The notes beneath the pieces were generated by a model. That model saw nothing but the letters and a program-made list of their open reading frames with translations. It did no database searches and was not told where the DNA came from. A stretch of DNA of 64,000 nt from a virus. The stretch covers positions 112,312-176,311 of IMG/VR virus record IMGVR_UViG_3300007734_000761; one strand, 5' to 3'. The translations under genes and the position numbers were made by a program. Positions 10,427 through 56,997 of the stretch are shown in pieces (position 1 is the first letter of the stretch; every line of letters starts with the position of its first letter).

Positions 10427-12163
10427 TTAAACTACTTGCAAGTCAGCAACTTCGATCTTACCGTAGTAATCAGGACGGAGCATTTTCTTAGCGTAGCGAG
10501 TCATTACACCTTTACGTGGTGTGAATGTTGTAGGATCATAGATCAATGGAGTCATGATCAATGGAACATAAGGAGCATAAACGGCACCAGTTTCCAAGAA
10601 CTGAGTTCCTTTGTAACCCAACAAGATAGTATTCCACTTCATGTAAGGGTTTTTGTACACCTTGTAACGACCATTGATTGAACCGATTTTCTGAACACCA
10701 AATGCATATTTCATTGTTTCTGCATCTGCGTTATCAGCAGCGAATCCAGGGATTGATTCCAAAATAGTAGCAACTGAAGGAGAAATTACCATAAAGTTAG
10801 CACCACCACGTAATGTTTTCTGGTGGATCAAGTTAGAAACTTTTTGTAATTTAATTCCTAAAGTTTGGAACCAAGACATTTGGTTGTAGTAAACACCAGC
10901 TGTATTGCTTGTGAAAGCAGTACCGTTTGAGTTGATTTGATTACCAACTTGAGCACTCCAGTATTGAGTGTTAGAAGCAGCAGCACCTGTGATCAACATA
11001 CCTAAAATTTCAAGGTCAATTTCCATTGAAATTTGCTCAGATAACATTGAAGTCAATTCAGCTTCAGCGTCTAAGTTTTGGTATGCATTCAAGTCTTGAG
11101 CGAATTCAGGAGTCCACTGAGCTTTCAATTTACGAGTTTCAGCAGTAATACTATCAGAAACTAACTTAATGTTTAATTCAGGGAATTCGATGTCGCTATA
11201 TGACTGTACGTTAGGAGATGCTAATGGGTTTCCACCGGCTTCGTAATCACCAACGTTGAATGGGTTCATAGAACCTTGTTTCAAGAAAGTTACTGTTGTA
11301 GCAACGTTAACTGTACTTCCGCTTAACAAACGATTTGCAAGAGCTGCGCTAGAAGCAGATACGTAGAAAGTAGTAGCAGTATTAGTAATTGTAGTGTAAT
11401 CAGCCAAAATACTATTAGCATTAATAGAAGCTGTAGGAGCAACTAAGTAGAAAGCTTGAACACCAAATACGTCTACAGAAGCTGTAGTATAACCGCTAGC
11501 AATACCTTGAGCAATAGCTTGAGCGTTAATTTGAACGTTAGGAATAACTACTTGATAAATTTGACCAGCATTACAAGAGTTAATGTAATTAGAATCGAAA
11601 TTGATTAAGTAGAAGTTTGAACCAGTTGTAATTTGAGTTACAGCAGAAGCAGATACACCAGAAGCTGAGAATTCGTTACGAGAGTATCCAAATCTACCAG
11701 CACCATAGTAACCACCTTCAGCTAAGTTGTCGAAGTTACTGTTACCAAATCCTGGAGCTGGAGTACCATAAAGTGAATCACCAGAAGTAAATGGAGTTTT
11801 AGTAGTACCATACTGGAAGTCCAAGTAGAAAATAAGACCAGTTGGCATTTGCATTGGCTGAACAGAAACGAATTCTTTAGCCACTACTTGTCCAAAAATC
11901 TTACGTACCATTGGAAGAGCAACACCAGCCCATTGGTAACCTTGACCAGTTGTAAAACCAGAAGTAGCACCAGCAGTAGTGTTTGTTTCAACGATAAGTT
12001 CCTTGGCTTGGTTTTCGAGCAACATCGACATGTTTGTTTTGTCGTATCCGCTCAAACCTTCCAATAAACCAGATTTAGCCCATTTGTTTGCTAAACGAGT
12101 CGCGTCGCCTTGCAAAGACTGCCATGGGTTAGCAGATTCGAGAAGTTGATTAATTGTTGACAT
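10427..12163 (-). CDS. Major capsid protein precursor, T4 gp23-like
   Basis: 578 residues, gp23-family major capsid protein. Position (after scaffold and protease, followed by a strong terminator) and sequence support this, for example VALPMVRKIFGQVVAKEFV near residues 80-100, FMVISPSVATILESIPGF, and a C-terminus ending in GKIEVADLQVV. The N-terminus carries four L/I-x-E sites (Glu 9, 35, 50 and 59). Cutting after Glu59 (LIVE|TNTT) matches the position of T4 gp23 maturation (Glu65), leaving a mature N-terminus with AGATSGFTTGQGYQ. The central Ser/Thr/Ala-rich part (about residues 150-290) is probably the variable insertion domain. The leader is A-rich with no Shine-Dalgarno. Confidence 0.92.
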   Translation of the reverse strand: MSTINQLLESANPWQSLQGDATRLANKWAKSGLLEGLSGYDKTNMSMLLENQAKELIVETNTTAGATSGFTTGQGYQWAGVALPMVRKIFGQVVAKEFVSVQPMQMPTGLIFYLDFQYGTTKTPFTSGDSLYGTPAPGFGNSNFDNLAEGGYYGAGRFGYSRNEFSASGVSASAVTQITTGSNFYLINFDSNYINSCNAGQIYQVVIPNVQINAQAIAQGIASGYTTASVDVFGVQAFYLVAPTASINANSILADYTTITNTATTFYVSASSAALANRLLSGSTVNVATTVTFLKQGSMNPFNVGDYEAGGNPLASPNVQSYSDIEFPELNIKLVSDSITAETRKLKAQWTPEFAQDLNAYQNLDAEAELTSMLSEQISMEIDLEILGMLITGAAASNTQYWSAQVGNQINSNGTAFTSNTAGVYYNQMSWFQTLGIKLQKVSNLIHQKTLRGGANFMVISPSVATILESIPGFAADNADAETMKYAFGVQKIGSINGRYKVYKNPYMKWNTILLGYKGTQFLETGAVYAPYVPLIMTPLIYDPTTFTPRKGVMTRYAKKMLRPDYYGKIEVADLQVV

Positions 12164-12182: not shown

Positions 12183-13583
12183 TTATTTTGTAATAATACC
12201 AGCTAATTGTTGCATTCTTGTAATTTGATCATCTGTACTGATAATAGGTGACTTAGCTGTTGTACCACCTACGATACTAGAAGCAAATGATTTGTGTTCT
12301 TTCAAAGTAGTTTTAGAACTTACTTTAGAAGTTTTTACTGTGTTTTTCAATACTTCGTAAATGTTTTTAGCTTCAGTTAAAGTTTGTGCTTTATCAAAGC
12401 TATTAACAACATTTACTTTTTGGTTTTCAGTTAAGTTGCTTGCTTTAAACAATTTATTTACATAAATCAATTTAGCATTTAACAAATTAACTTCATTTAA
12501 TTGGCTACGAAGACTCTTAATTACATTGATTGCTTCTTCTAATTCTTTTTCTTTTTCTTTCTTTTTAGCTTCATCTACTTCTTTAACTTTTTCGTTGAGC
12601 TTCATAGAAAGTTTATTTTTGTAAGCACCATTTAAACCAGATTTCTTGTCACCAGCTGCACCATATGGTGCACCGATTTTGTTTTTAGATTTACCTAAAC
12701 CAAAAGGAGCATTAGCTTTCTTATCGTAAGCTTCGTCTAATTCTTTTTCTTTCTTACCACCTTTGTACTTAGCACGCTCATCAAGCTCTTCTTTTTCTTT
12801 TTTCTTTCTTTCGTAAAGAGCAAATAATTCGTCTAATTCTTCTTCTTTTGACTTTTTCTTTTTAGGTTTTTCTTCAGTCTCTTCTTCGGTTTCGTCTTCG
12901 ATGTCTAAGTCGAATTCATCGTCACCTCCAGCGTCCATGTCCGTCATGTCCATGTCTGTCTCTTCGTCTCCAGCAGCACCAGCTTCACCACCCATGACAG
13001 CTCTAATAGCGTCTTGGATCATGTCGCGAAGTTCGTCTACTGTTACTTCGTCGATGCTCTCACCTCCACTAGCTTTTTCAAACATAGTGTTTTCTTCGAG
13101 TTCTTCTTTACCTTCTTCCATTTCATCATCGCCTTCATAAATTTCATTGGCTTCTTCTTCAAGCTCACGTAAGATTTCTTCAAGATCGTAATCTTCTTCT
13201 AAATCTTCTTCGCTCATTTCAGAATTCATTTCCATCATGTCGTCGTCTTCTTCAGAAAGAGAATTGAAAAGTTCTTCAAGATCGAGTTCTTCCATGTTGT
13301 CATAGTCTTCTTCAAGTTCGTCTTTTCCTTCTTCCATTTCTTCAGTTTCATCTAATGAATCAATGAGATTGTCTTTGTCTACGATGTACGTAGCTTTTTC
13401 TTTAAGCTCTTCCTCTTTCTTTTCTTCTAATTCGTCAGCTTCCATTACACGTCTTTCAAACATGCTCTGAATGCGAGGCATAAAAGATTCTTCAAGGGCG
13501 GCTTTTGCGTTAGCGACGGCAACTTCACGTAAAGTTTTGGCGTCAGCAATTGCGTCTTTAAATAATTGTTGGTTGTTTGACAT
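12183..13583 (-). CDS. Prohead scaffold/core protein, T4 gp22-like
   Basis: 466 residues with an amphipathic N-terminal helix, a strongly acidic middle (about residues 50-240, rich in Glu, Asp and Met), alternating Lys/Glu coiled coil, then a basic stretch with APFGLGKSKNKIGAPYGAAG and a helical C-terminus ending ITRMQQLAGIITK. It sits between protease and capsid genes exactly like T4 gp22, and the composition fits an assembly core that is digested during maturation. It is longer than T4 gp22 (269 residues). The final RMQQLAGI motif recurs near the ends of two other proteins in the window. Confidence 0.8.
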   Translation of the reverse strand: MSNNQQLFKDAIADAKTLREVAVANAKAALEESFMPRIQSMFERRVMEADELEEKKEEELKEKATYIVDKDNLIDSLDETEEMEEGKDELEEDYDNMEELDLEELFNSLSEEDDDMMEMNSEMSEEDLEEDYDLEEILRELEEEANEIYEGDDEMEEGKEELEENTMFEKASGGESIDEVTVDELRDMIQDAIRAVMGGEAGAAGDEETDMDMTDMDAGGDDEFDLDIEDETEEETEEKPKKKKSKEEELDELFALYERKKKEKEELDERAKYKGGKKEKELDEAYDKKANAPFGLGKSKNKIGAPYGAAGDKKSGLNGAYKNKLSMKLNEKVKEVDEAKKKEKEKELEEAINVIKSLRSQLNEVNLLNAKLIYVNKLFKASNLTENQKVNVVNSFDKAQTLTEAKNIYEVLKNTVKTSKVSSKTTLKEHKSFASSIVGGTTAKSPIISTDDQITRMQQLAGIITK

Positions 13584-13722: not shown

Positions 13723-14352
13723 TTATTTTATGCAACAAACTCCCGTTTGATTACAAATAATATCTGTAATCAGTGAGTTAATTTTTGAGTATTGGTTAGA
13801 TATTTGTTGAGTGTATTGTTTACCTTCAGCTAAACTTACTGGTTTCATGTAAGCTCCATGTGTACTTGGTGTACTTACAAAATCCCAACATACTAAATCA
13901 AAATCATCTTGTACTTCTACAGTATTTTCGCCTAATTGTTTAACACTACCCATTCCTCTTGAACTAATTCCTACAGTAATGTTATTTAACAATAAATCTT
14001 TTAAAATATTTCCACTAGGTGTATTAAGAATTTCAATACGGCCAAATAAATCATCACCTTCCCATCGTAATTGTTTAATATTGTGACAAACATTTTTTAA
14101 ACTAATAACAGAAGACTCTGGGTGATCTAATTCACCCAAAGCTCTGTTTTGGGCAATCGGGCCTGCAATGTATTTTTCTACTTCTCTATGGAGAATTGCT
14201 TTAGGATAAACACGACCGTTTTCATTTTTGGCATCTGCACGCTGTACAATACCTTCTACCACTAAATTTTTATTAGGGCTCATTTTAGCCTCATTAAGAG
14301 ACTGAGGTGTTGGCTTGAATGCCAAATATTCTATTAAAACTTGTTTAGTCAT
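13723..14352 (-). CDS. Prohead maturation protease, T4 gp21-like (S77 family)
   Basis: Serine protease that matures the prohead by cutting scaffold, capsid and internal proteins after (L/I)-x-E in the T4 family. Visible landmarks are GRVYPKAIL, the His motif ALGELDHPE, WEGDDLFGR and the Ser motif VGISSRGMGS. These match T4 gp21 (ALGELNHP, GVSSRGLGS) in order and spacing. I choose the ATG at 14352 (MTKQVLIEYL), which overlaps the upstream stop by 8 nt, over the ATG at 14382 that lies deep inside the upstream gene. Length is about 209 residues, close to T4 gp21 (212). It is the likely processing enzyme for the tagged proteins elsewhere in the window. Confidence 0.88.
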   Translation of the reverse strand: MTKQVLIEYLAFKPTPQSLNEAKMSPNKNLVVEGIVQRADAKNENGRVYPKAILHREVEKYIAGPIAQNRALGELDHPESSVISLKNVCHNIKQLRWEGDDLFGRIEILNTPSGNILKDLLLNNITVGISSRGMGSVKQLGENTVEVQDDFDLVCWDFVSTPSTHGAYMKPVSLAEGKQYTQQISNQYSKINSLITDIICNQTGVCCIK

Positions 14353-15394
14353 TTGGATCGTTTGGGTTATCAAACTTAGCATTAAAACCTTGATCTGTTA
14401 ATTTTTTAAGTGTACTCATATCTCCAGGTTTTACAGATACTATTCCTCTAGCCATTTCATGTACTAAAGTTAAAATTTGATTTTTAGTAGTAGGAGTTAA
14501 CTTAATTTTTCTAGAGTCTTTTACGTTTACATCTTCGTTTATGTCTTCTTCAAAACCACTTAATGTTCCTCTATTGTAAAATCCTGGGCCGGGTTTATCT
14601 GCTGTTTCTTGATTACTAATTGTGTAATCCATTCCTTCTTCTACACCCTTACTAAGAAGTCTTTCTAAAGCACTAGCTAAATCTTTTTTACCTTCTTCTT
14701 TTAACTTAGCTACTAACTGTTTTAATTTTGCTAATTGTTGTGCAGGAATGCCTTTAGACTCACTCATTGGAGCATCATTAATATTTTTAATAGCTTTCTT
14801 TACTTTATCTTGAATTTCTTCGTCTTTATCGCGTTTTTCAGCGTATTGTCTTAGTAATTTAATGACTTGATTTTTCTTAGCTGTATCTCCTTTAATAGCA
14901 TCTCTAACACTTTTAATAAGTTCTCCGTTATTATCCATAGCGGCTAAATAAGATGCTGGATTAAGTGTATAAACATCATATCCTTCATTTAATTTAGCTG
15001 GTTCCATTCCAGAAGACTTATATTTACCTTTAACTTCGTCTTTAAGACCATATGGAGCGTCTTGTTTATCAGCTTTAGGCATTTTACCATCTTTTTTTAT
15101 GGCTTCAGCACTTTTAGCAGTATTTTTTACTCCAGGTTTTTTACCAGATCCATATTCACCCACCATTTTAATGGTTTCGTTTACTAACATGTTAGTGTAA
15201 AAATTAGGATCTTTTTTAAGATTTTTCAAAACTTTACTTTGGGCTTCTTTGATAGTATCAACGTTAATGGTTTTACCAGAAGTTGTTAATTCATAATCCA
15301 TCCCATTTTCAAATTCGTAAATATTGACTTTGTCTATTTCACGAACTACAGGAGTGATGTATTTATCAAAGTAAGATTTATTAGGATTACTCAT
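14345..15394 (-). CDS. Prohead core-associated protein of unknown function
   Basis: 349 residues, highly charged. It begins MSNPNKSYFDKYITPVVREID and contains YEFENGMDYEL, a Lys-rich linker with QDAPYGLKDEVKGKYK, AKLNEGYDVY, a helical Lys/Glu region and a C-terminal HEMARGIVSVKPGD segment. A KLNE|G site (L-x-E) precedes the central domain. It lies in the T4 gp67/gp68 slot between portal and protease, so a core role is likely, but it is larger than either and I see no clear homology to them. A junction box lies 4 nt upstream of its ATG. Confidence 0.6.
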   Translation of the reverse strand: MSNPNKSYFDKYITPVVREIDKVNIYEFENGMDYELTTSGKTINVDTIKEAQSKVLKNLKKDPNFYTNMLVNETIKMVGEYGSGKKPGVKNTAKSAEAIKKDGKMPKADKQDAPYGLKDEVKGKYKSSGMEPAKLNEGYDVYTLNPASYLAAMDNNGELIKSVRDAIKGDTAKKNQVIKLLRQYAEKRDKDEEIQDKVKKAIKNINDAPMSESKGIPAQQLAKLKQLVAKLKEEGKKDLASALERLLSKGVEEGMDYTISNQETADKPGPGFYNRGTLSGFEEDINEDVNVKDSRKIKLTPTTKNQILTLVHEMARGIVSVKPGDMSTLKKLTDQGFNAKFDNPNDPND

Positions 15395-24118: not shown

Positions 24119-24382
24119 TTAAACCAAATAAATTTTTAATTTAAGTTTACCATTTCCTTTAATAGCTCTATGCCATTTGTGTTTAGGAATGTAAATTGGT
24201 TTATTTAATGAAGTTGGTAATTCGTTGTCTAATTGAATTTTCCAATTTGTTTCACCAATTATTTCAATTGTTCTGTCTTCATTATCACGATGCCACATCA
24301 ATTCTATAGGATCAATGTTTTCATCAAATTCCCTAATAATATATTTGTCAGTAATTTCTAAATCTTTATACGGCTTTATCAT
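24119..24382 (-). CDS. Small cupin-like phage protein
   Basis: 87 residues. ELMWHRDNEDRTIEI, WKIQLDNELP and a late IYIPKHKWHRAIKG match a small conserved phage family with a cupin-like beta-barrel pattern, as I recall it. His residues in WHRD and WHR could bind metal. It overlaps the upstream Cys-rich gene by 17 nt. Function unknown. Confidence 0.6.
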   Translation of the reverse strand: MIKPYKDLEITDKYIIREFDENIDPIELMWHRDNEDRTIEIIGETNWKIQLDNELPTSLNKPIYIPKHKWHRAIKGNGKLKLKIYLV

Positions 24383-24791
24383 CTGTAAGAGGACCGCCTA
24401 CAACCCAAGCATTACAAGTTCGAGCTGCAGCACATTTAAACTTTAAAAACCTACAGTATCCTAATTGACCTGCTTTAATAACATCAAATGGATCTTCTGT
24501 ACCTTCATCACTACCTATTCCTTTAGCTATGCAATCTAATGTTTTTGTTGTAATATCAAATGCAGCACAGTTACCACAACGAGAAGATTTAGCTTCTTCT
24601 ATAGAATCAAGTTTCCACATGTCTACTTTATCCTGCCAAAATTTATCGTTTGGTTCATTTGGGTTTAGAGGACCATATCCATACTCATTAATTGCTTTTT
24701 GTCTGTTTTGAAGATTTAATTCAATATTTTGAGTGGGGGCAGGACATTTACTTATTTCTGCTTCGTTTAATATATTAATTAGTTTTATCAT
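24366..24791 (-). CDS. Tagged Cys-rich metal-binding virion-type protein
   Basis: 141 residues. It starts MIKLINILNE|AE, the shared 10-residue tag with Glu at position 10. After the tag, nine cysteines are arranged as SKCP, RCGNCAAFD, DCIAKG, YCRFLKFKCAA and RTCNAW. This spacing suggests Fe-S or Zn binding, perhaps HiPIP-like. The family looks familiar from marine T4-like phages but has no assigned role. Adjacent to the FAD oxidoreductase and cupin-like genes. The tag suggests packaging in the head (inference). Confidence 0.7.
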   Translation of the reverse strand: MIKLINILNEAEISKCPAPTQNIELNLQNRQKAINEYGYGPLNPNEPNDKFWQDKVDMWKLDSIEEAKSSRCGNCAAFDITTKTLDCIAKGIGSDEGTEDPFDVIKAGQLGYCRFLKFKCAAARTCNAWVVGGPLTDDKAV

Positions 24792-25108
24792 TTTTTATCT
24801 TTAATTAACAATTCACCTAAAACTTCTAAACGACCAACTTCTCTTTGAAATTCAATTTGAGACATGTCTAAAGAGATTTTTTTATAAGTTTCCTCGTATT
24901 CTTTTTTTGCTTTTTCTAAATCTAATTTACCTTCACTTGCCTTTTTGTAATAGGGTAATTTAACTTTAAAGTGGTGCCAAGTTAAAAGCGCTAAACCTCC
25001 TTTTTTGTGAGCATTATCAGCAATTTTTTTAGCTCCACTCATACGAGTTTGACTAAAATCTTCAAATTGGTTTTTTGCTTCTACTAGTATGTCTTTAAAT
25101 TTAATCAT
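24788..25108 (-). CDS. Tagged small basic virion-type protein
   Basis: 106 residues beginning MIKFKDILVE|AK. The rest is Lys-rich and helical: TRMSGAKKIADNAHKKGG, HFKVKLPYYKKA and a C-terminal GRLEVLGELLI. It overlaps both neighbours by 4 nt in ATGA junctions, so the cluster is translationally coupled. It is basic, as expected for an internal DNA-associated head protein, but the function is not known. Confidence 0.7.
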   Translation of the reverse strand: MIKFKDILVEAKNQFEDFSQTRMSGAKKIADNAHKKGGLALLTWHHFKVKLPYYKKASEGKLDLEKAKKEYEETYKKISLDMSQIEFQREVGRLEVLGELLIKDKK

Positions 25109-25464
25109 TTTTTTAATCGTTGAGTTTTTCTTTTAGATGCTTCTTTTCTGGCAGTGATGTATGTTAGTCCTTTTTTTAAACGAGCTTTTACTTCAGGATT
25201 TTTGGCTTTACTATATGCTGCTCTTACACGTTGATGAATTAAGTTAATAATCTGTGATTGGCGAGCATGGCTTTTTGCTTTAAAAGATGATTTAGACAAT
25301 GTATTTTTAATGTCTTGAACAGTTTTAAATTTAACACCTACAGTATCTGTTGGATCTTCATCTGTGTATAAACGGCGACTTGATCCTTTTGGCTTTTTAC
25401 CTGTGCCTACTTTAGGATCAGCCTCATTTAAAGATTCTTTTAGAAGATCTACTAGTTTAATCAT
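25105..25464 (-). CDS. Tagged basic virion-type protein
   Basis: 119 residues beginning MIKLVDLLKE|SLNE|AD, with two L-x-E sites. The body carries KPKGSSRRLYTDEDPTDTVG, VKFKTVQDIKNTL, SHARQSQIINLIHQRVRAAY and a Lys/Arg-rich tail. Its strong positive charge suggests nucleic-acid binding inside the head. ATGA overlaps on both sides. Confidence 0.7.
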   Translation of the reverse strand: MIKLVDLLKESLNEADPKVGTGKKPKGSSRRLYTDEDPTDTVGVKFKTVQDIKNTLSKSSFKAKSHARQSQIINLIHQRVRAAYSKAKNPEVKARLKKGLTYITARKEASKRKTQRLKK

Positions 25465-26189
25465 TTTGTTTTACCCCATGTTTTACCTTTACCTGGTCTT
25501 TTACATTGAGAAGGTGTAGGTCTACATGATGGATATTTTGATCTTACCTCACCTTTTTTACGGCCACAAGGTTTACATTTTCCATCACGACAAGTATTAC
25601 AATCTACCCATCCTCCTGTTTTACCTGGTGCTCCTTTACGTTTAAACCAAGTTCTTAATGTTTCTTTTTTAGCTTCATCTAATTCAGATTTTCTATTATT
25701 AATATAAGTTTCAATATCTTCGGCTTTATAGCCTAATAGTTGACCTATTCTTCTAGCATCTTCATCAGTAGCTTTATATGACAAATAACCATTGTATTTT
25801 TCTGCTATGTCTTTTAACTCATTAGCTTCATTTTCTGCTCCTTTTACATAAAAAACATAAGCTCTATGGGGATTTGAAGGAACTTTAATAGTACCTAAAT
25901 CAAACTTTTTTACAATATCCCAAAAATTTTTTTCAGGAAAATCCATGCCATCTAAAACCATAAAACCTAATTTTCGTTTTCCATCTAAAACAGTTTTTAT
26001 AGAACCTTTATCCTCGTATGCTTCTTCAGCACTAATTTCTTCTTTTAGTCCCTTCCAAATATTTCCTTTACGACATCTAACAATAGCACCAGACTTATAT
26101 GCTGAAGGTTTACTGTAACGACGATCTGCTATGCGTTTACAGCGATCTTCAGTAAGTACTTCAAGTAATATGTTAGTAAGTTTAATCAT
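25461..26189 (-). CDS. Tagged multidomain protein with C-terminal Cys-rich domain
   Basis: 242 residues. The tag is MIKLTNILLE|VLTE|D. A first small domain has RCKRIADRRYSKPSAYKSGA. A middle alpha/beta domain runs from GLKEEISAEE to YINNRKS. A last domain after SELDE|AKKE has LRTWFKRKGAPGKTGGWVDC, CRDGKCKPCGRKKGE and CRPTPSQCK, similar to a Cys-rich domain seen in phage and giant-virus proteins (DUF5872-like from memory). L-x-E sits in the linkers at both domain borders, consistent with later cutting into three pieces. Confidence 0.68.
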   Translation of the reverse strand: MIKLTNILLEVLTEDRCKRIADRRYSKPSAYKSGAIVRCRKGNIWKGLKEEISAEEAYEDKGSIKTVLDGKRKLGFMVLDGMDFPEKNFWDIVKKFDLGTIKVPSNPHRAYVFYVKGAENEANELKDIAEKYNGYLSYKATDEDARRIGQLLGYKAEDIETYINNRKSELDEAKKETLRTWFKRKGAPGKTGGWVDCNTCRDGKCKPCGRKKGEVRSKYPSCRPTPSQCKRPGKGKTWGKTK

Positions 26190-27064
26190 ACAGAAATTGA
26201 AGTTGATATGTCACCTGTAGGTATTAACTTACCACCCATATTTTCTATTTTTTGTTTCATTTCTTCAAAGTTTTTTGGTATTACACTTACTTTAAAACTT
26301 TTTGGGTTTTCTTGAACAAATTTAAAAAAATCATTTAATGTAGGAAATAAACCTGTTATATTAGGACGATTTTTATAATCATATTTTTTTAGTTCAACAG
26401 CTTCTCCGGGTATTTTTAAGTACTGTTTTTTTTCTAAAAATGGTTTTAAAAATCCATATTTAGTTGCTCTAAATACTGTTATTTTTTTTAATTTACCATT
26501 AAAATAAAAAATTCCTAATTCCTTTTTTATTCCATTTTCTACACTTCCATATTGTACTGCTAGTCTTCTTTGTGCTTCTCTAGGTAATTCTATAGTAAAA
26601 TTTTCTGTTACCGAAAAATCTATTTTATTTACGTTTTTATCTATTTTTATTTTTCTTAAGGCTTTAGATAAATCAATGCCTTGAGTCAAATCAGAAGTAG
26701 GAGCTGATGAAACTGTAAACTCATCATCTATGTCTACTCCTAAGTCTTTTGCTTTAATAGCTGCACCTTCTACAGGCATTATAATGCCATTCTGCAATAA
26801 AGCTTTTATAAACGTACTAGCGTTACCTGTTCCTTTAATGTTGAATACTTTTTTAACATCATCTACATTGAAATGATTTATGTCTTCTAAAGATTCCATT
26901 TTCAAAACAATGTCTTGAAATCTAGGTCCTGAGCCTCTAACATTAGATATTTTACTTTCCCAGTCATCTGTTAAAGTGTAGAACTTCTTTATCTGTGGCA
27001 TTTCAGCCAAATGTCTTTTTACAGCTTCTACTAGTATTGCTTTTATTAAATTTCTTTTTTCCAT
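26186..27064 (-). CDS. Hypothetical protein with variant cleavage tag
   Basis: 292 residues beginning MEKRNLIKAILVE|AVKRHLAE|MPQ, a longer variant of the tag with L-x-E at Glu13 and Glu21. After this comes a mixed domain (VRGSGPRFQDIVLKMESLED), an ENFTIELPREAQRRLAVQYG segment and a C-terminal domain with TLNDFFKFVQENP. No known catalytic motif. It overlaps the next gene by 4 nt and belongs to the tagged cluster. Confidence 0.6.
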   Translation of the reverse strand: MEKRNLIKAILVEAVKRHLAEMPQIKKFYTLTDDWESKISNVRGSGPRFQDIVLKMESLEDINHFNVDDVKKVFNIKGTGNASTFIKALLQNGIIMPVEGAAIKAKDLGVDIDDEFTVSSAPTSDLTQGIDLSKALRKIKIDKNVNKIDFSVTENFTIELPREAQRRLAVQYGSVENGIKKELGIFYFNGKLKKITVFRATKYGFLKPFLEKKQYLKIPGEAVELKKYDYKNRPNITGLFPTLNDFFKFVQENPKSFKVSVIPKNFEEMKQKIENMGGKLIPTGDISTSISV

Positions 27065-27065
27065 A

Positions 27066-27698
27066 TTACCAAAATCCTGAGTATGATGATTTTAATCCTA
27101 ATAATTTAGCGTAGCGAGGTAAACGACAACTCCAGTAACTTGCTTTTGTTCTGTCTTTTTTATTAGGACAATCGTGACGTTTTGAAAAAGCAGCTCTTGC
27201 TTTAGAGTTATTAATTTTAGCTGACAAACCAGTAGTGTCACCAAATGATACTTTTTTAACTCCACCACCTGGTTTTCTTACATAAACATAGAATTTTTTA
27301 GATCCACCACGTTTTGGTTTACCAATTGGAGGTATTTTTTTCTTTTTATCTGCTTCTTCTAAGTCTACTTCTTCTAATAGTAAGTCTATTGGAACTAATT
27401 TACCATTGTAAAAATCAAACGTACCAATTTCTGTTTCTTCTAAAAGTTGCTTGTCAGCTCCATCGAAAGTTATTTGTTTATTTTCATGTAACCATCTAGC
27501 TTCTTGCCATAAGTCAAGAAAAGATTCACTGCCATATCTAAATGTATTTTCAGTAATAGGAAGTTTTTGATAAACATGATATAACATGTTAGGACTAATT
27601 TTTTCTGGGTTAGTCGATTCTGTTAGTAAAGGAGCTTTAGGTCTGGCGCAAGTTGGACATCCTGATCCTTCTAACAATATGTCTTTTAACTTAATCAT
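27066..27698 (-). CDS. Tagged virion structural-type protein with basic C-terminal domain
   Basis: 210 residues. Tag MIKLKDILLE|GS, followed by CPTC, then LLTE|STNPEK, then a helical domain, then VDLEE|ADKKKK before a basic C-terminal domain with FYVYVRKPGGGVKKVSFGDT, FSKRHDCPNKKDRTKAS and SCRLPRYAKLLG. I recognise the C-terminal domain from T4-like marine phage virion proteins. L-x-E sites again sit at the domain edges. ATGA overlap with the upstream gene. Confidence 0.7.
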   Translation of the reverse strand: MIKLKDILLEGSGCPTCARPKAPLLTESTNPEKISPNMLYHVYQKLPITENTFRYGSESFLDLWQEARWLHENKQITFDGADKQLLEETEIGTFDFYNGKLVPIDLLLEEVDLEEADKKKKIPPIGKPKRGGSKKFYVYVRKPGGGVKKVSFGDTTGLSAKINNSKARAAFSKRHDCPNKKDRTKASYWSCRLPRYAKLLGLKSSYSGFW

Positions 27699-29449: not shown

Positions 29450-30075
29450 TACTTACGACGTAATTTTGCTTTTTCTATTCTTTCACCTTTAGCAACACCG
29501 GCACCAAAAGTATTTTTTTCACCTTTTTTACCAAAACGTTTTGCGTCTCTAGCACGTTTATAATCAGTATCGCCTCTTCCTTCATAGAATTGAGCACCTA
29601 AAATAACATCTGAGTCAGAAGAACGCATAGATGGCATATCATCCATTTCTTCACTTTCTTCTCCAGCTAAATAATTATAAACTGAGTTTAGATAGTCCTC
29701 TGCTATAGTAAGTTTTGACTGTACCCATGCATCTAACTGTTCTCCATCGTCAATCATATTACACAACTTATCAGTTAAACTTTTAATAGAACGAAGCTGA
29801 CCATGAGCCATATCTGATTCATCATCTGGCTGCTTCCAATCATCTTCTTCTAAATCCTCAGCATCAAAAGACATATTTGGTCCTGTTGGATTTGGAACTA
29901 ATGGTTGTTCTTTCATATTTTTAGCAGCACGTAATGCTTTAAAATCAGCACCTGTAATTTTATCTTTAGGTTCAGCTGCAGATGCTATTTTCATTTGTTT
30001 ATCAGACAATTCATTAAGCTCTTTTAAAGCTTGCTGCATGCGCCATTCGTGGATGTCAAAATTATTGTTAGTCAT
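29449..30075 (-). CDS. Virion-type hypothetical protein
   Basis: 208 residues with HEWRMQQALKELNELSDKQM near the N-terminus, an acidic centre, and GEQLDAWVQSKLTIAEDYLN, a helical segment common in T4-like marine phage structural proteins. It ends in a basic tail (RARDAKRFGKKGEKNTFGAG). It overlaps the next downstream gene's start and belongs to the same operon as the tagged genes. Function unknown. Confidence 0.6.
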   Translation of the reverse strand: MTNNNFDIHEWRMQQALKELNELSDKQMKIASAAEPKDKITGADFKALRAAKNMKEQPLVPNPTGPNMSFDAEDLEEDDWKQPDDESDMAHGQLRSIKSLTDKLCNMIDDGEQLDAWVQSKLTIAEDYLNSVYNYLAGEESEEMDDMPSMRSSDSDVILGAQFYEGRGDTDYKRARDAKRFGKKGEKNTFGAGVAKGERIEKAKLRRK

Positions 30076-30415
30076 TTTTATATTCTGTTACTTCGGCGCC
30101 TAATACATTAGGCATTTTTTTACGGATATTTTCTAAAATCTTTTTAAGTCTTTCAGAAGTTACTTTACCTTCTTTAGCACTTACCTTTATTCCTGTTGAG
30201 TCTTTAATCTCAAATTTAAAAGGTGGTTCAGACATTTTTGATTCTTTAGCTAATTTAGAATAGTTACTAGGATTGCTTAACCATTTCATAGCACTATTTC
30301 TTAAACCTTCTGATTTAAATACAAAACCTGGTGTTAGTACCTCTACTACTTCCTTTTCTTCAGAAATAATACCAGCTAACGCCTGCATTCTTTTTATTTC
30401 AACTGCTGATTGCAT
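30068..30415 (-). CDS. Small protein with N-terminal RMQxLAGI motif
   Basis: 115 residues beginning MQSAVEIKRMQALAGIISE|EKE. The KRMQALAGI element matches the C-terminal TRMQQLAGI of the scaffold and loosely the end of the 429-residue protein at 55.7 kb. It is followed by an I-x-E site. The remainder is Lys-rich, with VSAKEGKVTSERLKKILENI. Possibly another head-targeted protein using a scaffold-binding motif. Confidence 0.55.
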   Translation of the reverse strand: MQSAVEIKRMQALAGIISEEKEVVEVLTPGFVFKSEGLRNSAMKWLSNPSNYSKLAKESKMSEPPFKFEIKDSTGIKVSAKEGKVTSERLKKILENIRKKMPNVLGAEVTEYKND

Positions 30416-30776: not shown

Positions 30777-31367
30777 TTATGATAAATATGTATCAATCTT
30801 AGCTCTTTGGTCAGCAATCCATTGTTTAGTTTCTTTTATTTGTTCTGGAGTTAAACCTCTACCATCCCAACTTTCTACTTCTCCAGTTTCACTCATAACT
30901 TTTTCAAAACCATTAGAAACAAAATCATCAAATTCTTTTTCGGTTTGATCTAAAATGTGTAAATGATTTTTAAAATACATATTCTTCGCGTATTCATCAA
31001 AGATACCGGCCAGTTTCATGTTAGTTTCTTCTTTAGTCACGCACTTTGGACATTTATGCGCAAGCTTATAAATATGTTTTACATACTCACTTTGTCTAGC
31101 TAAAGGTTCACTACATTGAGGACAAGTAAGAGGCATAATATTTGTGTCTTTAAACTTAGCTAACTTACTTACAGTACGTTTTACACCATTTTTAATAGTC
31201 CACGTTTTACCATTTTCATCCCAAACGTCTCCTTCTTGTCTTTTTACTTGAGATTCATAACCTGCCTGAATTGTAGTTCTATCTCCAGTTTTTTTCGTAA
31301 TAATATTACGCATTCGCTGAACTTCACGTTCAGTAAACTGTCTATTTAGTAAAGTTTCTTTACTCAT
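30777..31367 (-). CDS. Zinc-ribbon phage protein
   Basis: 196 residues. TEREVQRMRNIITKKTGDRT at the N-terminus, GDVWDENGKTWTIKNGVKR, then a four-Cys ribbon (CPQC...CPKC) near residues 82-111, and a helical C-terminus. Proteins with this arrangement are common in T4-like marine phages without assigned role; the ribbon probably binds Zn. It overlaps the upstream four-domain gene by 8 nt. Confidence 0.6.
   Translation of the reverse strand: MSKETLLNRQFTEREVQRMRNIITKKTGDRTTIQAGYESQVKRQEGDVWDENGKTWTIKNGVKRTVSKLAKFKDTNIMPLTCPQCSEPLARQSEYVKHIYKLAHKCPKCVTKEETNMKLAGIFDEYAKNMYFKNHLHILDQTEKEFDDFVSNGFEKVMSETGEVESWDGRGLTPEQIKETKQWIADQRAKIDTYLS
30782..30789 (-). promoter_or_regulatory. Junction box before 30417-30761
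   Basis: Minus CATATTTATC in the last codons of the zinc-ribbon gene, 20 nt before the ATG. Confidence 0.4.
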
Positions 31368-33666
31368 ATTTAAATTTATATAACTTTTTTATTGATTCTC
31401 TTGAGTCTTCTGGATTGTTTTTTATTCCTGTTCCACCAGCTTGAATAAACTGACTAACGTTTGAACCCACATCATCAATCAACATATAACCTGGTTTTGC
31501 TTCTGTGTGTTTGTCTTTAGCTTGTTTGTATACTCTTCTGTCTTGAGGAATATTTAAATGTTTGTCTACCCATTCATTTTTTCCCTTTTTAGCATCTCCG
31601 TTTGGATCTAAACCTGGTGATGATAATATCCATACTTCTATACCTTTTTCATCAGCTATTTTCATAACGGCCTTATAAAGTTCTTCTCCACCTGGATTCC
31701 AAGGCATTGTTGACCAAAACTTTACTTTGCCTTTATTAATTATATCCCAAGCTTTATTAGCACCATATTTTCCAATGTATGATTTAAAATCTAAATTTTC
31801 TTTGTTGTATTTTTTAAATTGATCATCAAAACCAGCTAATACTCCATCTAAATCAAAGTAGATTCTTGTAATAGGAGGATTTGTTTCTTTAGATTCATTT
31901 AACATTCCAATATTATAAATGCTAGGATTTTGTTTTCCATAGTCTCTCATTAATATACCGGCAATAGCATTGGCATCATTTTCATGTTCACTACCAGTTT
32001 CGCCTGAATCTGGTTGTAATAAGCCCATTTCGTTTTGTTTAGCATGAACTAACTCATGAGCTAACGTGCGAAGAACATCAACTATATTTCTGTTACTAGG
32101 ATTGACAAATATATGATGTTTTGATGGAACATATGCTCCAAAACTTGGTTGATCTTCACCATATTCATATCTAATTTCAAACGAAGGAGGATTATGAATT
32201 TGAAGTTCGTTGCAAGCATAAGTCATGAATTTTTCAAAAAGTGAATTTTTATCAACAGACTCATTTAAAGATAAAGTTTTATCTATAAAAGAATTTTTTA
32301 GATTATTAAGTTTTTCTAAATAACCTGTGTTTCTTAAATTTTTAAATGCTAAGTTTTCTAATGAATATTCACCATCTTCATCTAATCCTGTTTGTCTAAA
32401 GTTTTTAAGACGTTCTTTAATTTTATTTGTAAGTTCTATCGCTTTTTCAGGATTATTTTTACCTATTTTTTCTAATTTATCTATTTGTTGTTTAAATAAC
32501 TTTGCTTTCTTTTCAATTTCTTCGTCAGGAATATTTATTTCTACAAAAGACGGTTTACGTAACCATTTATCATTCATTAAGCTGTATTCACCTCTATATT
32601 CAGGATGGTCTTTATTATCTTGAATGTAAACTTCAATATTTTGTTTGCCTAATTTTAAATCATGAACCCTATTCCAGTTAACCTTTGCTTCATCAAAGTA
32701 TTTTTTTAACAATTCAGGATTTTCAAATTTGTCAAAATCAACAACAATGTGTAAATCTATGTCAGATGTTGGAGTATAATTATAATTTACACTACTTCCT
32801 GTTAAAAGAATATCTTCAAACGGTTCAGGTATTTCTAATCCTTCCCAAAAATAATTAGCTACTTTTAATAATAACTCTTTTACTTTTGGGTCTACTTTAT
32901 CATCAGTATCAAAAATTAAAGGATTTAATTTATTTTGACTCTTATATTCTAACCAAACCCACTGAGGTTGTTTTTTAGGGTTTGGTTGAGTTCCTTCTTG
33001 TAAACTAGCTGGTTCAGGAAAATTAATTCCTAAAACTCTCTGAATGTCATCTAAGTATCCTTTTTGTATTACTGCTTCAGGAAATAAACTTTTAAAGTAG
33101 TTATATGTAGTATTATAATCGTTTAATGCTTTTTTATCTCCAGGATTATTTTTTACTTGAAGATATCTTTGTCTTAATTCAGCTATTGTAGCTCTAAAGT
33201 CAGTTCCACTAACTCTATCACCATCACTATCTACAAATTGATCATCTACAATTTCTTCTTGAACTCTATCACCAAAAGCCTCTTTTAAACCTTTAAAATA
33301 TTCTAAATCATCTGCTTCTTTACCAGCAGCAGCAACATAAGCTTCTCTATTTAAGTCATCTCCAAACCATCTATAAAGATCTCTAATAGGAGATTTAGTC
33401 TTAGCAATTTCAACTTTAATTTTTGGATTTGGTTGGGCTTTTAAATAAATGTCCCAAATTGCTTTACTTTGTTCTGCTGTAATTCCACCTCTTTTACCGT
33501 GACCTATTAATACATTTACTTGAGTAATATAAGGTTTTGCTGCTAATTGTTGAGCAGCGGCAAGATGACCTTTATGTGGTGGTTTAAAACCTCCAGGATA
33601 CCAACAAATTTCAGGTTTTTTGGCTACTTCTTCTCCTATTAATTTTCCTATTTCTGCTACGTTCAT
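31360..33666 (-). CDS. Four-domain protein: HxGH nucleotidylyltransferase, Pol-beta NTase, HExxH zincin, HAD
   Basis: 768 residues with four recognisable domains. (1) Residues ~18-200: nucleotidylyltransferase fold, GGFKPPHKGH (25-34) and SGTDFR (153-158), as in NMN adenylyltransferase/cytidylyltransferase relatives. (2) ~225-460: Pol-beta type nucleotidyltransferase, GSS at 290-292 and DID at 302-304. (3) ~470-590: zincin, HELVH at 537-541 with a later SEHENDANAIAG as probable third ligand. (4) ~600-768: HAD/5'-nucleotidase-like, FDLDGVLAGF, ILSSPG and LIDDVGSN. Borders carry LQE|G (Glu224), LNE|S (Glu469) and LNE|S (Glu591), and IGE at Glu12. All active-site motifs look intact. Overlaps the kinase gene by 4 nt. 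Confidence 0.8.
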   Translation of the reverse strand: MNVAEIGKLIGEEVAKKPEICWYPGGFKPPHKGHLAAAQQLAAKPYITQVNVLIGHGKRGGITAEQSKAIWDIYLKAQPNPKIKVEIAKTKSPIRDLYRWFGDDLNREAYVAAAGKEADDLEYFKGLKEAFGDRVQEEIVDDQFVDSDGDRVSGTDFRATIAELRQRYLQVKNNPGDKKALNDYNTTYNYFKSLFPEAVIQKGYLDDIQRVLGINFPEPASLQEGTQPNPKKQPQWVWLEYKSQNKLNPLIFDTDDKVDPKVKELLLKVANYFWEGLEIPEPFEDILLTGSSVNYNYTPTSDIDLHIVVDFDKFENPELLKKYFDEAKVNWNRVHDLKLGKQNIEVYIQDNKDHPEYRGEYSLMNDKWLRKPSFVEINIPDEEIEKKAKLFKQQIDKLEKIGKNNPEKAIELTNKIKERLKNFRQTGLDEDGEYSLENLAFKNLRNTGYLEKLNNLKNSFIDKTLSLNESVDKNSLFEKFMTYACNELQIHNPPSFEIRYEYGEDQPSFGAYVPSKHHIFVNPSNRNIVDVLRTLAHELVHAKQNEMGLLQPDSGETGSEHENDANAIAGILMRDYGKQNPSIYNIGMLNESKETNPPITRIYFDLDGVLAGFDDQFKKYNKENLDFKSYIGKYGANKAWDIINKGKVKFWSTMPWNPGGEELYKAVMKIADEKGIEVWILSSPGLDPNGDAKKGKNEWVDKHLNIPQDRRVYKQAKDKHTEAKPGYMLIDDVGSNVSQFIQAGGTGIKNNPEDSRESIKKLYKFKYE

Positions 33667-34505
33667 GGTTTAGCAAATGTTTTTACTGCTCCTACTGCTT
33701 CTCTATAATTTAGAGGTTTAATAATTTTTAAAAACTTTTCAACAGTTTTAAATTGATCCTTAATATTTTTAACAGCATCACTAAATTTCTTCTCTGCTGC
33801 TTTTTTCTTTTCTTCTTTTGCCTTTAAAGTTTCAGGATCTGGTAAGTCTTTTGATGTTTTTACATCAGAAGGTTGGGGTTTACTGAAACTAGATCTGTAT
33901 TTTTCTGGATCTGTTTGTATTAACTGTTTAAAGTAATCTTCTAATTCACCTGACTTTAGTACTTTTTCAAATTTATTAACATTTGCTTTTTCAGCAGGTG
34001 ATAATTCTGTTTGAACAACTAAATACTCAATACCAGGAATGCTTTTATAGCTACTTATTTGGTTATATACTTTAGCCCAATTATTTAACACAACTTCTTT
34101 AGGTAATTTTCTACTTCTATTAAAATTTCTTAAAAAGCTAACAATAGGACTTCCGTAAAGTGTAATAACCATTACTTTATAACCATTTTGTTGTGCGTTA
34201 CTCACAATTTCTGCTGTTTCTTTAAAATTTTGTCCTGTAGTATCATAAATAAAATTTTGTTTTTTACTAATAGCATCAGGAATAGCCTTAGTTCTTATAA
34301 TAATATTATTTTTACTTATGTTAGGTCTATCAGGATCATCTTCTGGATTAAAAGTATCAGGATTGAATACTCTAAAATCTGAAGGTATATTTCTTACTAA
34401 ATCATTTATTAAAGTTGATTTACCCATTCCTGCTGCTCCTGATAGAATTATTGCTTTTGGTTGTGTGCCAAAAACTTCTAATAACAAAGACTGCAGATTA
34501 ATCAT
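33663..34505 (-). CDS. Tagged P-loop kinase, zeta-toxin/AAA_33-like
   Basis: 280 residues. Starts with the tag MINLQSLLLE|VFG. Walker A IILSGAAGMGKST follows at ~19-31, then DTFNPEDDPD, FIYDTTGQNFKETA, MVITLYGSPIVSFLRNFNRS and a Lys-rich C-terminal helix. The layout resembles zeta-toxin or polynucleotide-kinase-like P-loop kinases; the substrate is unknown. An ATATTTAT box lies 4 nt before the ATG. The overlap with the four-domain gene suggests co-production. The tag suggests this kinase is packaged in the head (inference). Confidence 0.68.
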   Translation of the reverse strand: MINLQSLLLEVFGTQPKAIILSGAAGMGKSTLINDLVRNIPSDFRVFNPDTFNPEDDPDRPNISKNNIIIRTKAIPDAISKKQNFIYDTTGQNFKETAEIVSNAQQNGYKVMVITLYGSPIVSFLRNFNRSRKLPKEVVLNNWAKVYNQISSYKSIPGIEYLVVQTELSPAEKANVNKFEKVLKSGELEDYFKQLIQTDPEKYRSSFSKPQPSDVKTSKDLPDPETLKAKEEKKKAAEKKFSDAVKNIKDQFKTVEKFLKIIKPLNYREAVGAVKTFAKP

Positions 34506-36293: not shown

Positions 36294-36779
36294 TTATAAA
36301 TCAATTATATGAATTAAACCACTTTTTGGATAAGTATGTTCTTTACCATCATTTTTTTTCATTATAATATTATCTCCATCAATTTTGGTAATTCTACCTA
36401 CTTGTTGTCTAACACTATTCATATCTTTATATGACATTTTAGGTAAAACATTTAAACCTACTTTTAAATCTGCCATTTGGTTTGATTTTGGTTGGTCCAT
36501 TCCAAAGGGTTTTGTTACATCTTTAAGATAAAAGAATGGTATTTTTTCTTCTTTTAATCCTATTTTTTTATCTCCAAAAGCATCATTAATTGCATCCCAA
36601 TCATCATGACTTACAGAAATTTTCTTTTTAGAACCATCTTCAAACTCAACATTATATGATTTGTCACCATTTTGTGTAGCATTTTTAATTGTTTTTCCTT
36701 CACATTTAACTTCACTTAGTTGAGATTGTGGAGTTAATTTGTTTTCAATTAAAAACTTTTTTAAGTCAAAATTATCCAT
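36294..36779 (-). CDS. Small protein with tag-like N-terminus
   Basis: 161 residues beginning MDNFDLKKFLIE|NKLTPQSQLSE|VK, a hydrophobic/charged N-terminus with L-x-E at Glu12 and Glu23. It has two predicted beta domains (SYNVEFEDGSKKKISVSHDD; QQVGRITKIDGDNIIMKKND), the second SH3/KOW-like in pattern. Possibly a further head-targeted small domain protein. A junction box lies 4 nt upstream and overlaps the stop of the upstream gene. It is followed by a terminator. Confidence 0.55.
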   Translation of the reverse strand: MDNFDLKKFLIENKLTPQSQLSEVKCEGKTIKNATQNGDKSYNVEFEDGSKKKISVSHDDWDAINDAFGDKKIGLKEEKIPFFYLKDVTKPFGMDQPKSNQMADLKVGLNVLPKMSYKDMNSVRQQVGRITKIDGDNIIMKKNDGKEHTYPKSGLIHIIDL

Positions 36780-55707: not shown

Positions 55708-56997
55708 TTACAAACCAGCTAATCTTTGAAGTCTTTCAAGTAAAGCATTATCTGCGTCATCTGCTGTTTTATCTTGACGCATTTGTTTAAACATGCCTTT
55801 TAATTGATTTAATTGTTGACTAGTAACATTATTATTAATTACATTAGTCATTAATTGAATAAATTCTTTATTTTCTAACTTATAAATATCTTGTAAGAAA
55901 TCATCTCTTTCCTCAGGTGTAACGTTAACTTCTAATTTATTAATTAAGTCTTGTAAGTTTTTAGCAATTAACTGACCATAAGCAATGTCTTCAGGTTCAT
56001 TAGTAATTTTATCAGTAAATTTAACTACTTTTTCTCCTCTTTCTAAATCACTAAATCCAAATAAACCAATAATTTCATACATTCCTTTTACAATTTCTAA
56101 TATAAGAACAGGAAAAACAATAGCTCTTGCTTTAATAATCCATTTTTCTTTTTCAAAATCATAAAATACTGACTCAGCTCCAGTAGCACTAGATTCTAAA
56201 TCAGCTCCACCCATACGCATACCAGCTGCTCCTACTGAAAAATCAATTAAATCAAGAGCAGCCTGCATTAAATCTCTGTATTTATCACTTGTTCCTTGTC
56301 CACCAATAATATCAATGTATTCTTGTTGAATGTAATGAGCTGATTTACTAAATGTAGAAGCGCCTTGCGTAACAGCGTTAATTAATCTTCTTTTTTTTAA
56401 ATCCTCAGCAATGTCATCCATCATTTCTTGTTCTTCTTCTACACTTAATTCATCAATGTCTTCTTCTTGTGGTGAATTTGGTTGTAAAGCTTCTTTAACT
56501 TGTGGTTGAGGAACAATTTTAGCATCAATTTCAATTACATCTTCATTTGACTTTAAATAAGGATAGGCTTCGTATATAACATCGTAGGCTAACTGTTCAA
56601 GTAAATCTTGATTTCCTTGTTCTAACTGCATTACTTGTTGAGCTAACTGCATTAGATTACCCATAATCTGCATTGGGTTTTTACCTTGTATCCTTTGTTT
56701 TACACTACCTTTTAATTTACCTAATGTTTCTGGGTCAAAAACCTTATCATAGTCGGCCTCACTTAATTTATTAAAAGCAGACATGTATCTATCTACAATT
56801 TTTTTCATAACTTCACTTTCTTCTCCCATTAAAGTTTTAGCTTTTGGAGCAGGAGTTGGTGAAGTACTAGGACTAGGAACACTTCTTCTACGAGGAGTAG
56901 GTTTAGTAGGTGTATCTGTATCGGGTTTAGTAACCGGTTTAGTAGGAGCTGGTGCAGTTTGAGGTTCCTCTAACAATAAAGATTTTAACTTGATCAT
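55708..56997 (-). CDS. Tagged 429-residue head-associated protein
   Basis: Starts MIKLKSLLLE|EPQ, then a Pro/Thr/Lys-rich linker to ~residue 60 and a mostly helical body: VDRYMSAFNKLSEADYDKVF, MQLAQQVMQLEQGNQDLLEQ, RRLINAVTQGASTFSK, then a hydrophobic FPVLILEIVKGMYEIIGLFG stretch. The final residues LLERLQRLAGL recall the scaffold end RMQQLAGI. A box lies 5 nt before the ATG. Probably an internal or core head protein; no enzyme motif. Confidence 0.62.
   Translation of the reverse strand: MIKLKSLLLEEPQTAPAPTKPVTKPDTDTPTKPTPRRRSVPSPSTSPTPAPKAKTLMGEESEVMKKIVDRYMSAFNKLSEADYDKVFDPETLGKLKGSVKQRIQGKNPMQIMGNLMQLAQQVMQLEQGNQDLLEQLAYDVIYEAYPYLKSNEDVIEIDAKIVPQPQVKEALQPNSPQEEDIDELSVEEEQEMMDDIAEDLKKRRLINAVTQGASTFSKSAHYIQQEYIDIIGGQGTSDKYRDLMQAALDLIDFSVGAAGMRMGGADLESSATGAESVFYDFEKEKWIIKARAIVFPVLILEIVKGMYEIIGLFGFSDLERGEKVVKFTDKITNEPEDIAYGQLIAKNLQDLINKLEVNVTPEERDDFLQDIYKLENKEFIQLMTNVINNNVTSQQLNQLKGMFKQMRQDKTADDADNALLERLQRLAGL

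Follow-up and report, generated by a model that had tools for sequence, protein, structure and literature searches.

A tagged four-domain protein of a T4-like phage as a putative polyprotein of the prohead protease

For the division of polyvalent phage proteins into working parts, self-processing by a zincin has been suggested: Iyer et al. 2017 (PMC5512222), who described such proteins in phages and conjugative elements and compared them with polyproteins, proposed processing by the embedded zincin. The question arises for a gene in a viral contig record of 176,311 bases, of which we analysed a window of 64,000 nucleotides (positions 112312-176311 of the record). Its intact ORF (31360..33666, minus strand, ATG start) encodes a 768-aa chain of four enzyme-like domains. 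In our assessment the gene probably encodes a capsid-targeted polyvalent protein that the prohead protease cuts into separate injected enzymes. The sequence, the predicted disorder at the sites, their conservation, the module swapping and the presence of a protease gene are observed, while packaging, cleavage, injection and function are inferred.

The chain, its neighbours and the N-terminal tags

A first-pass annotation of the sequence had recognized four enzyme-like domains in these 768 residues, and profile searches, an AlphaFold2 (AF2) model and fold comparison bear it out. The N-terminal domain (aa ~20-215; 33022..33609, minus) resembles NaMN/NMN adenylyltransferases of the HxGH type. Its match by sequence is weak (PF01467, E=0.053), but it displays the HxGH and SGT..R motifs (GGFKPPHKGH and VSGTDFR), its alignment has invariant columns, and a Foldseek search with the AF2 model matched its fold to NadD structures; relatives are matched only weakly by PPAT and NadD models alike. 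It is followed by a Pol-beta nucleotidyltransferase (NTase) domain (aa 239-467; 32266..32952, minus; phrog_36119, E=7e-43; PF01909 above its cut-off), a zincin-like metallopeptidase domain (aa ~475-585; 31912..32244, minus; phrog_87 metallo-protease, E=2.4e-5) with an intact HELVH motif at residues 537-541, and an NT5C-like HAD domain resembling 5'(3')-nucleotidases (aa 599-766; 31369..31872, minus; phrog_2643, E=6e-20), whose fold matches the human and mouse 5'(3')-deoxyribonucleotidases. 5'(3')-deoxyribonucleotidases and NadD enzymes are the top Foldseek matches of the model. Searched with phmmer, the full-length protein matched no PDB sequence, and NCBIfam gave only weak, sub-threshold matches. 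With at least two unrelated effector-type domains in one polypeptide, the chain meets the definition of a polyvalent protein, and it contains the zincin-like metallopeptidase, a hub domain of that class.

The functions of the products are inferred, in the absence of activity data. NaMN/NMN adenylylation, the salvage step noted in PMC12774641, would restore NAD, nucleotides would lose phosphate through the HAD domain, and host proteins may be modified or cleaved by the NTase and zincin. In two relatives (L178 and L096) the NMNAT-like active site is degenerate, with PPTKGH and PPNKGH aligned to residues 25-34 and the first His of HxGH lost; the module is therefore possibly non-catalytic in some relatives.

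Judged from its genes, the phage is T4-like, with a gp23 capsid protein, a gp21-family serine protease, a portal and a terminase. The 768-aa gene sits in a co-directional cluster between baseplate and head genes, amid tagged proteins. As had been noted at first pass, it overlaps a tagged gene upstream, by 4 nt; this gene is kinase-like by domain search (33663..34505, minus) and starts with a tag of T4 geometry, MINLQSLLLE/ (a slash marks the presumed cut). Downstream, a Zn-ribbon gene (30777..31367) shares 8 nt with the ORF.

In the capsid targeting sequence (CTS) of T4, packaging depends on residues 4 and 7, processing on residues 8 and 10 (PMC9026906). The chain itself begins with a capsid-targeting-like tag, MNVAEIGKLIGE/ (33631..33666, minus), in which I6, L9, I10 and E12 take the T4 CTS positions -6, -3, -2 and 0; a short propeptide ending in [IL]xE/ with hydrophobic residues at -6 and -3 is what defines T4-type CTS cargo. 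For delivery of the chain with the DNA at infection the tag is no more than suggestive. At least nine further proteins of the phage begin with T4-like tags (MIKLxxLLxE/), and nine in its own gene set have the exact T4 geometry, against 0.17 expected. That count includes one probable chance match (34523) and omits MINLQSLLLE and MIKLINILNE, which are absent from the gene set. The tagged proteins, all on the minus strand, comprise MIKLINILNE/ (24366..24791), MIKFKDILVE/ (24788..25108), MIKLVDLLKE/SLNE/ADPK (25105..25464), a module that is internal in polyproteins of relatives, MIKLTNILLE/ (25461..26189), MEKRNLIKAILVE/ (26186..27064), MIKLKDILLE/ (27066..27698) and MIKLKSLLLE/ (55708..56997). 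Two of them are probably fusions themselves. The protein at 25461-26189 looks like an LxE-delimited multi-module chain (GLKE/EISA, SELDE/AKKETLRTWF), its AKKETLRTWF module being a tagged solo gene in L102, and that at 27066-27698 looks like a two-module one (LLLE/EVDLEE/ADKKKK plus a phrog_7595 module).

Other tag-like sequences recur as well: FDLKKFLxENKxT close to N-termini, and (R)xQxLAGI(I) at either terminus. They occur at 36294-36779 (minus), at 59398-59856 of the record, at 30068-30415 (minus) and at the C-termini of 12183-13583 and 55708-56997; the putative scaffold protein likewise ends in (R)xQxLAGI(I).

The presumed protease is a T4 gp21-family head maturation protease (13723..14382, minus; PF03420 Peptidase_S77, E=5.7e-31). 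Its substrate preference can be approached through the major capsid protein (10427..12163, minus; PF07068 Gp23, E=1.3e-76), whose N-terminal prodomain, like that of its homologues in relatives, carries [IL]xE repeatedly, here as LLE/, LLE/, LLE/ and LIVE/TNT. Nearly all of these phages bear [ILV]xE sites in the gp23 prodomain just ahead of the mature core; the last one reads LLRE/, LINE/, MINE/ or LLSE/ elsewhere, with VVE or VSE as the final triplet in some. Homology to solved mature gp23 chains starts at residue 60, directly after LIVE. The exact cut is inferred, since in T4 the mature chain already begins 11 residues ahead of the aligned position. The prodomain sites support [IL]xE as the putative recognition site in these phages and not in T4 alone. 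As a discriminator the protease family phrog_207 was rejected: it is present in 18/18 related records >110 kb searched, tagged or not, and is therefore necessary but not telling.

Joints between domains in the model and in relatives

The chain's borders carry the sites LIGE12/EV, SLQE224/GT, SLNE469/SV and MLNE591/SK, exactly where the first-pass annotation had placed protease-type sites. They are four of ten [IL]xE motifs in the protein; five others lie inside domains and one, SLFE478/, at the start of the zincin. Junction 1 comprises its site and a disordered linker at 223-235 (32962..33006, minus), and junctions 2 and 3 lie at 32257..32271 and 31891..31905 (both minus). In the AF2 model (40 aligned sequences, mean pLDDT 86.8, pTM 0.38) pLDDT falls below 50 at 223-235, 467-470 and 591-594 and in two zincin loops. 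The three internal sites are thus predicted to fall in the sole disordered inter-domain segments and are not buried, which is the outcome that the first reading had asked of a structure prediction. By shuffling and random placement, the chance that all three segments hold [IL]xE is ~0.001; this concerns one sequence, so the single protein is suggestive only and the main weight rests on the comparison with relatives. For the 1021-aa orthologue L019, a second model shows low confidence at 225-241, 468-473, 591-600, 629-646 and 844-848, coinciding with its junction sites (225, 471, 593, 634/641 and 844). Its inserted region has almost no alignment, so that the outer joints alone are informative. 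Low-confidence loops at joints would also be expected of ordinary linkers, and [IL]xE is a weak, short motif, found inside folded domains too.

Scans of viral contigs gave 240 loci, with the architectures NMNAT-ZN, NMNAT-ZN-HAD, NMNAT-NTase-ZN, ZN-HAD and others (ZN, zincin). Over 20 diverse relatives L222 and E224 are at least 90% conserved, while the intervening residue and P1' vary; at junction 2 L and E are likewise kept and x changes between N, V and T. Among 42 non-redundant fusions, 23/27 short linkers contain [IL]xE, against 12.9+-2.4 expected from shuffles (0/2000 of which reach 23) and 3.5+-1.7 from random in-domain windows. These two controls reject chance occurrence of the motif. 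Inside the domains its density is 9.1 per 1000 aa, lower than the 13.9 of the same phage's early proteins. The loss of L-x-E in orthologues that keep the fusion had been named beforehand as a finding that would speak against processing. The motif is mostly kept, as the linker counts and the conservation of L222 and E224 attest, but a minority of relatives has lost the site: L089 has ITD, L090 has LTK, and L059 and L087 have none. As far as sequences and AF2 models can tell, what is expected of a protease-matured polyprotein, a motif in flexible inter-domain linkers that is conserved across orthologues, is met.

Exchange of modules between tagged genes and chains

Additional modules were found at junction 3 in four relatives, each bounded by LxE on both sides. 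L003 carries there a fifth module of ~150 aa with the joint duplicated (MLNES/...WLNES/K). The other three have a Zn ribbon at this place: by itself in L096, together with a further module in L178 and with a second HExxH protein in L019. In L019 the insert spans residues 594-843 and carries the Zn ribbon CDKCGW...CHKCG and a second metallopeptidase-like module with HELAH. The 1549-aa chain of L226 has LxE at its visible borders, and an internal, full copy of a tag (GFTKYLVE/SFLKE/) directly precedes its NMNAT domain.

Moreover, tagged solo genes are homologous to internal modules of other chains, with the cut point aligned. MIKLLEILNE/ADPKKGTG (L032) corresponds to LSLPLNE/ADPKKGTG (L195), GGINE/ADPKTGTG (L197) and DAINE/ADPKKGTG (L206), the window's own solo copy being the gene at 25105-25464; MIKLIDLLKE/AKQVGTLY (L052) corresponds to ALNE/GKQVGTLY (L218), and MNLIKILLSE/GGTGGHMA (L189) to LLTE/GGTGGHMA (L194). 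The HAD domain is swapped in the same manner, MIKLLDILKE/AEEQQYKIY (L053) being the counterpart of EVLNE/GKQEQYKIY (L030), and in Flavobacterium phage immuto it is a separate gene with the tag MKKVMGNLADLLLE/ESD. In matches of solo to internal modules the motif lies near 145/183 interior junctions, against 29% at random, and at most 5 aa from the projected cut in 17/23 module families. The junction count takes in related sequences, and it was made on tag-filtered listings, the unfiltered all-against-all comparison being too noisy. That the tag is a mere part of the HAD fold was considered and rejected: untagged solo HADs (L040, MSYVIYCDMDG; L251) begin directly at strand 1 of the fold, and the tag is therefore an add-on. 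The NTase-like module of immuto gp089 (L005:4209-5117) starts directly as M-GGNVF; it lacks a tag, and there is no start codon further upstream. Elsewhere this module is tagged or preceded by LxE (LNE/GGNVF).

N-terminal tags and internal sites share the defining -2 and E positions and differ in the targeting ones. Hydrophobic residues at both -6 and -3 are present in 42/105 N-terminal tags (40%) and in 10/100 internal sites (10%; p=8e-7, an optimistic value because both sets contain related sequences). The internal joints would thus retain the T4 processing determinants and mostly lose the targeting ones, as expected of one address label with several cut sites. Disorder, conservation and the interchange of modules between tagged solo genes and LxE-bounded positions together lend support to the polyprotein maturation proposed at first pass, in which cleavage, presence in the head, injection and enzymatic activities remain inferences.

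Proposed maturation and its alternatives

In the model that we propose, the single N-terminal tag would bring the whole chain into the prohead core, where the gp21-type S77 protease, activated in head maturation, would cut after [IL]xE, removing the tag and severing the linkers at 224, 469 and 591. Four small enzymes of about 23, 28, 14 and 20 kDa would be freed, stay with the DNA, be injected and act at the start of infection, with nucleotide/NAD chemistry and host proteins as their probable targets. Fusion of modules behind one tag may ensure equal dosage, and an LxE joint may accept further modules that need no targeting signal of their own; passage through the tail should also be easier for small products. 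The presumed protease has LxE motifs of its own in its N-terminal region (VLIE/YLAF and SLNE/AKMS), whose position suggests self-removal of a propeptide.

The agent of cleavage could instead be the chain's own zincin, acting in the head or after injection; its HExxH is intact, and polyvalent proteins have the zincin as their hub (PMC5512222). An [IL]xE joint is found, however, in tagged solo proteins without a zincin and in 9/14 zincin-less fusions as well, and the capsid prodomain has this motif too, so that a protease acting in trans is implied; self-processing seems unlikely, and is not excluded. It is also conceivable that the protein is packaged through its tag and left uncut, the LxE of its linkers being an effect of composition or of helix caps. 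Multidomain phage proteins with flexible linkers are indeed common, and in N4 the virion RNA polymerase enters the head without processing (PMC5512222), but the enrichment in linkers above composition shuffles, the conservation of L and E beside varying neighbours and the presence of LxE on each side of inserted modules make this improbable in our judgement.

Since modules clearly pass back and forth between tagged solo genes and internal positions, and the targeting hydrophobics are lost at internal sites, these sites might be vestiges of N-terminal tags, in decay since the genes fused and no longer cut. We give this very little weight, because only the targeting positions have decayed while -2 and E are kept, a pattern predicted by selection for cleavage and not by neutral decay. 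It remains as counter-evidence to cleavage by the prohead protease that some fusions have no clear site and that linker sites could be left over from the joining of tagged genes. Separate production of the domains from internal translation starts was rejected as scarcely credible: an ATG (M588) stands just ahead of junction 3, but no Shine-Dalgarno-like sequence, and hence no ribosome site, precedes it, and there is no Met near residues 225 or 470.

Cleavage by the prohead protease has its parts in known systems. Like the polyvalent proteins of PMC5512222, the chain combines unrelated enzymatic domains, with the recurring zincin and Pol-beta NTase, and is likely head-packaged; unlike them, its joints match a prohead protease of the gp21 type, encoded separately, and a single capsid-targeting tag at the N-terminus. 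In PMC5512222 the term prohead protease was found in a reference title alone. With the T4 internal proteins and Alt it shares an N-terminal tag that ends in hydrophobic-x-E/ with the same spacing, besides the gp21-family protease and gp23 (PMC9026906, PMC5694885). T4 tags measure 10-19 residues and Alt undergoes a further cut, at LTE close to its C-terminal end, but T4 proteins lose a tag or terminal propeptide, and no T4 chain is described in these two sources as split into several enzymes. In phiKZ and SPN3US, many head proteins, ejection proteins among them, are cut after E, sometimes at several sites per protein (PMC10052503), but the multiple cuts lie in long discarded propeptides and not between functional modules. 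A genomic counterpart is gp086-gp090 of immuto (NC_055915.1), where genes for a primase, an exonuclease, an NMNAT+zincin protein, a HAD and a Zn ribbon are syntenic; its HAD is a separate tagged gene and its NMNAT domain is internal, unlike here. A Bacteroidota host is suggested solely by this synteny. In the open-access literature searched, which left out preprints and most subscription journals, neither multi-enzyme chains cut by a prohead protease nor the interchange of modules and tags was found, the polyvalent proteins and the T4 tags with gp21 being already known.

On balance, we favour the view that T4-like phages, probably mainly those of aquatic Bacteroidota, use the capsid-maturation protease as a polyprotein protease, and that modules shuffle between tagged solo genes and one-tag chains cut at [IL]xE inside the prohead. 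The [IL]xE joint, together with the exchange between solo and fused forms, would then give a simple, testable rule for recognizing phage enzymes carried in the head and their cut points. If this is true, dozens of 'hypothetical' late genes would be marked as injected effectors, a single head-targeted fusion might serve for the delivery of several proteins, and tailed phages would have an analogue of the polyproteins of RNA viruses, by which a modular set of injected enzymes is loaded.

Fusions of HAD and NTase in other large phages were treated separately. They have no N-terminal tag, and their LKE/IKE (here the slash separates alternatives) lies apparently at a helix end and is not conserved. 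The phrog_36119 NTase (L007, LR745206.1; L008, Molly_1; L132 and other large-phage loci) is widespread as a solo gene, usually unannotated, in very large phages and cyanophages, and in some it is fused behind a HAD.
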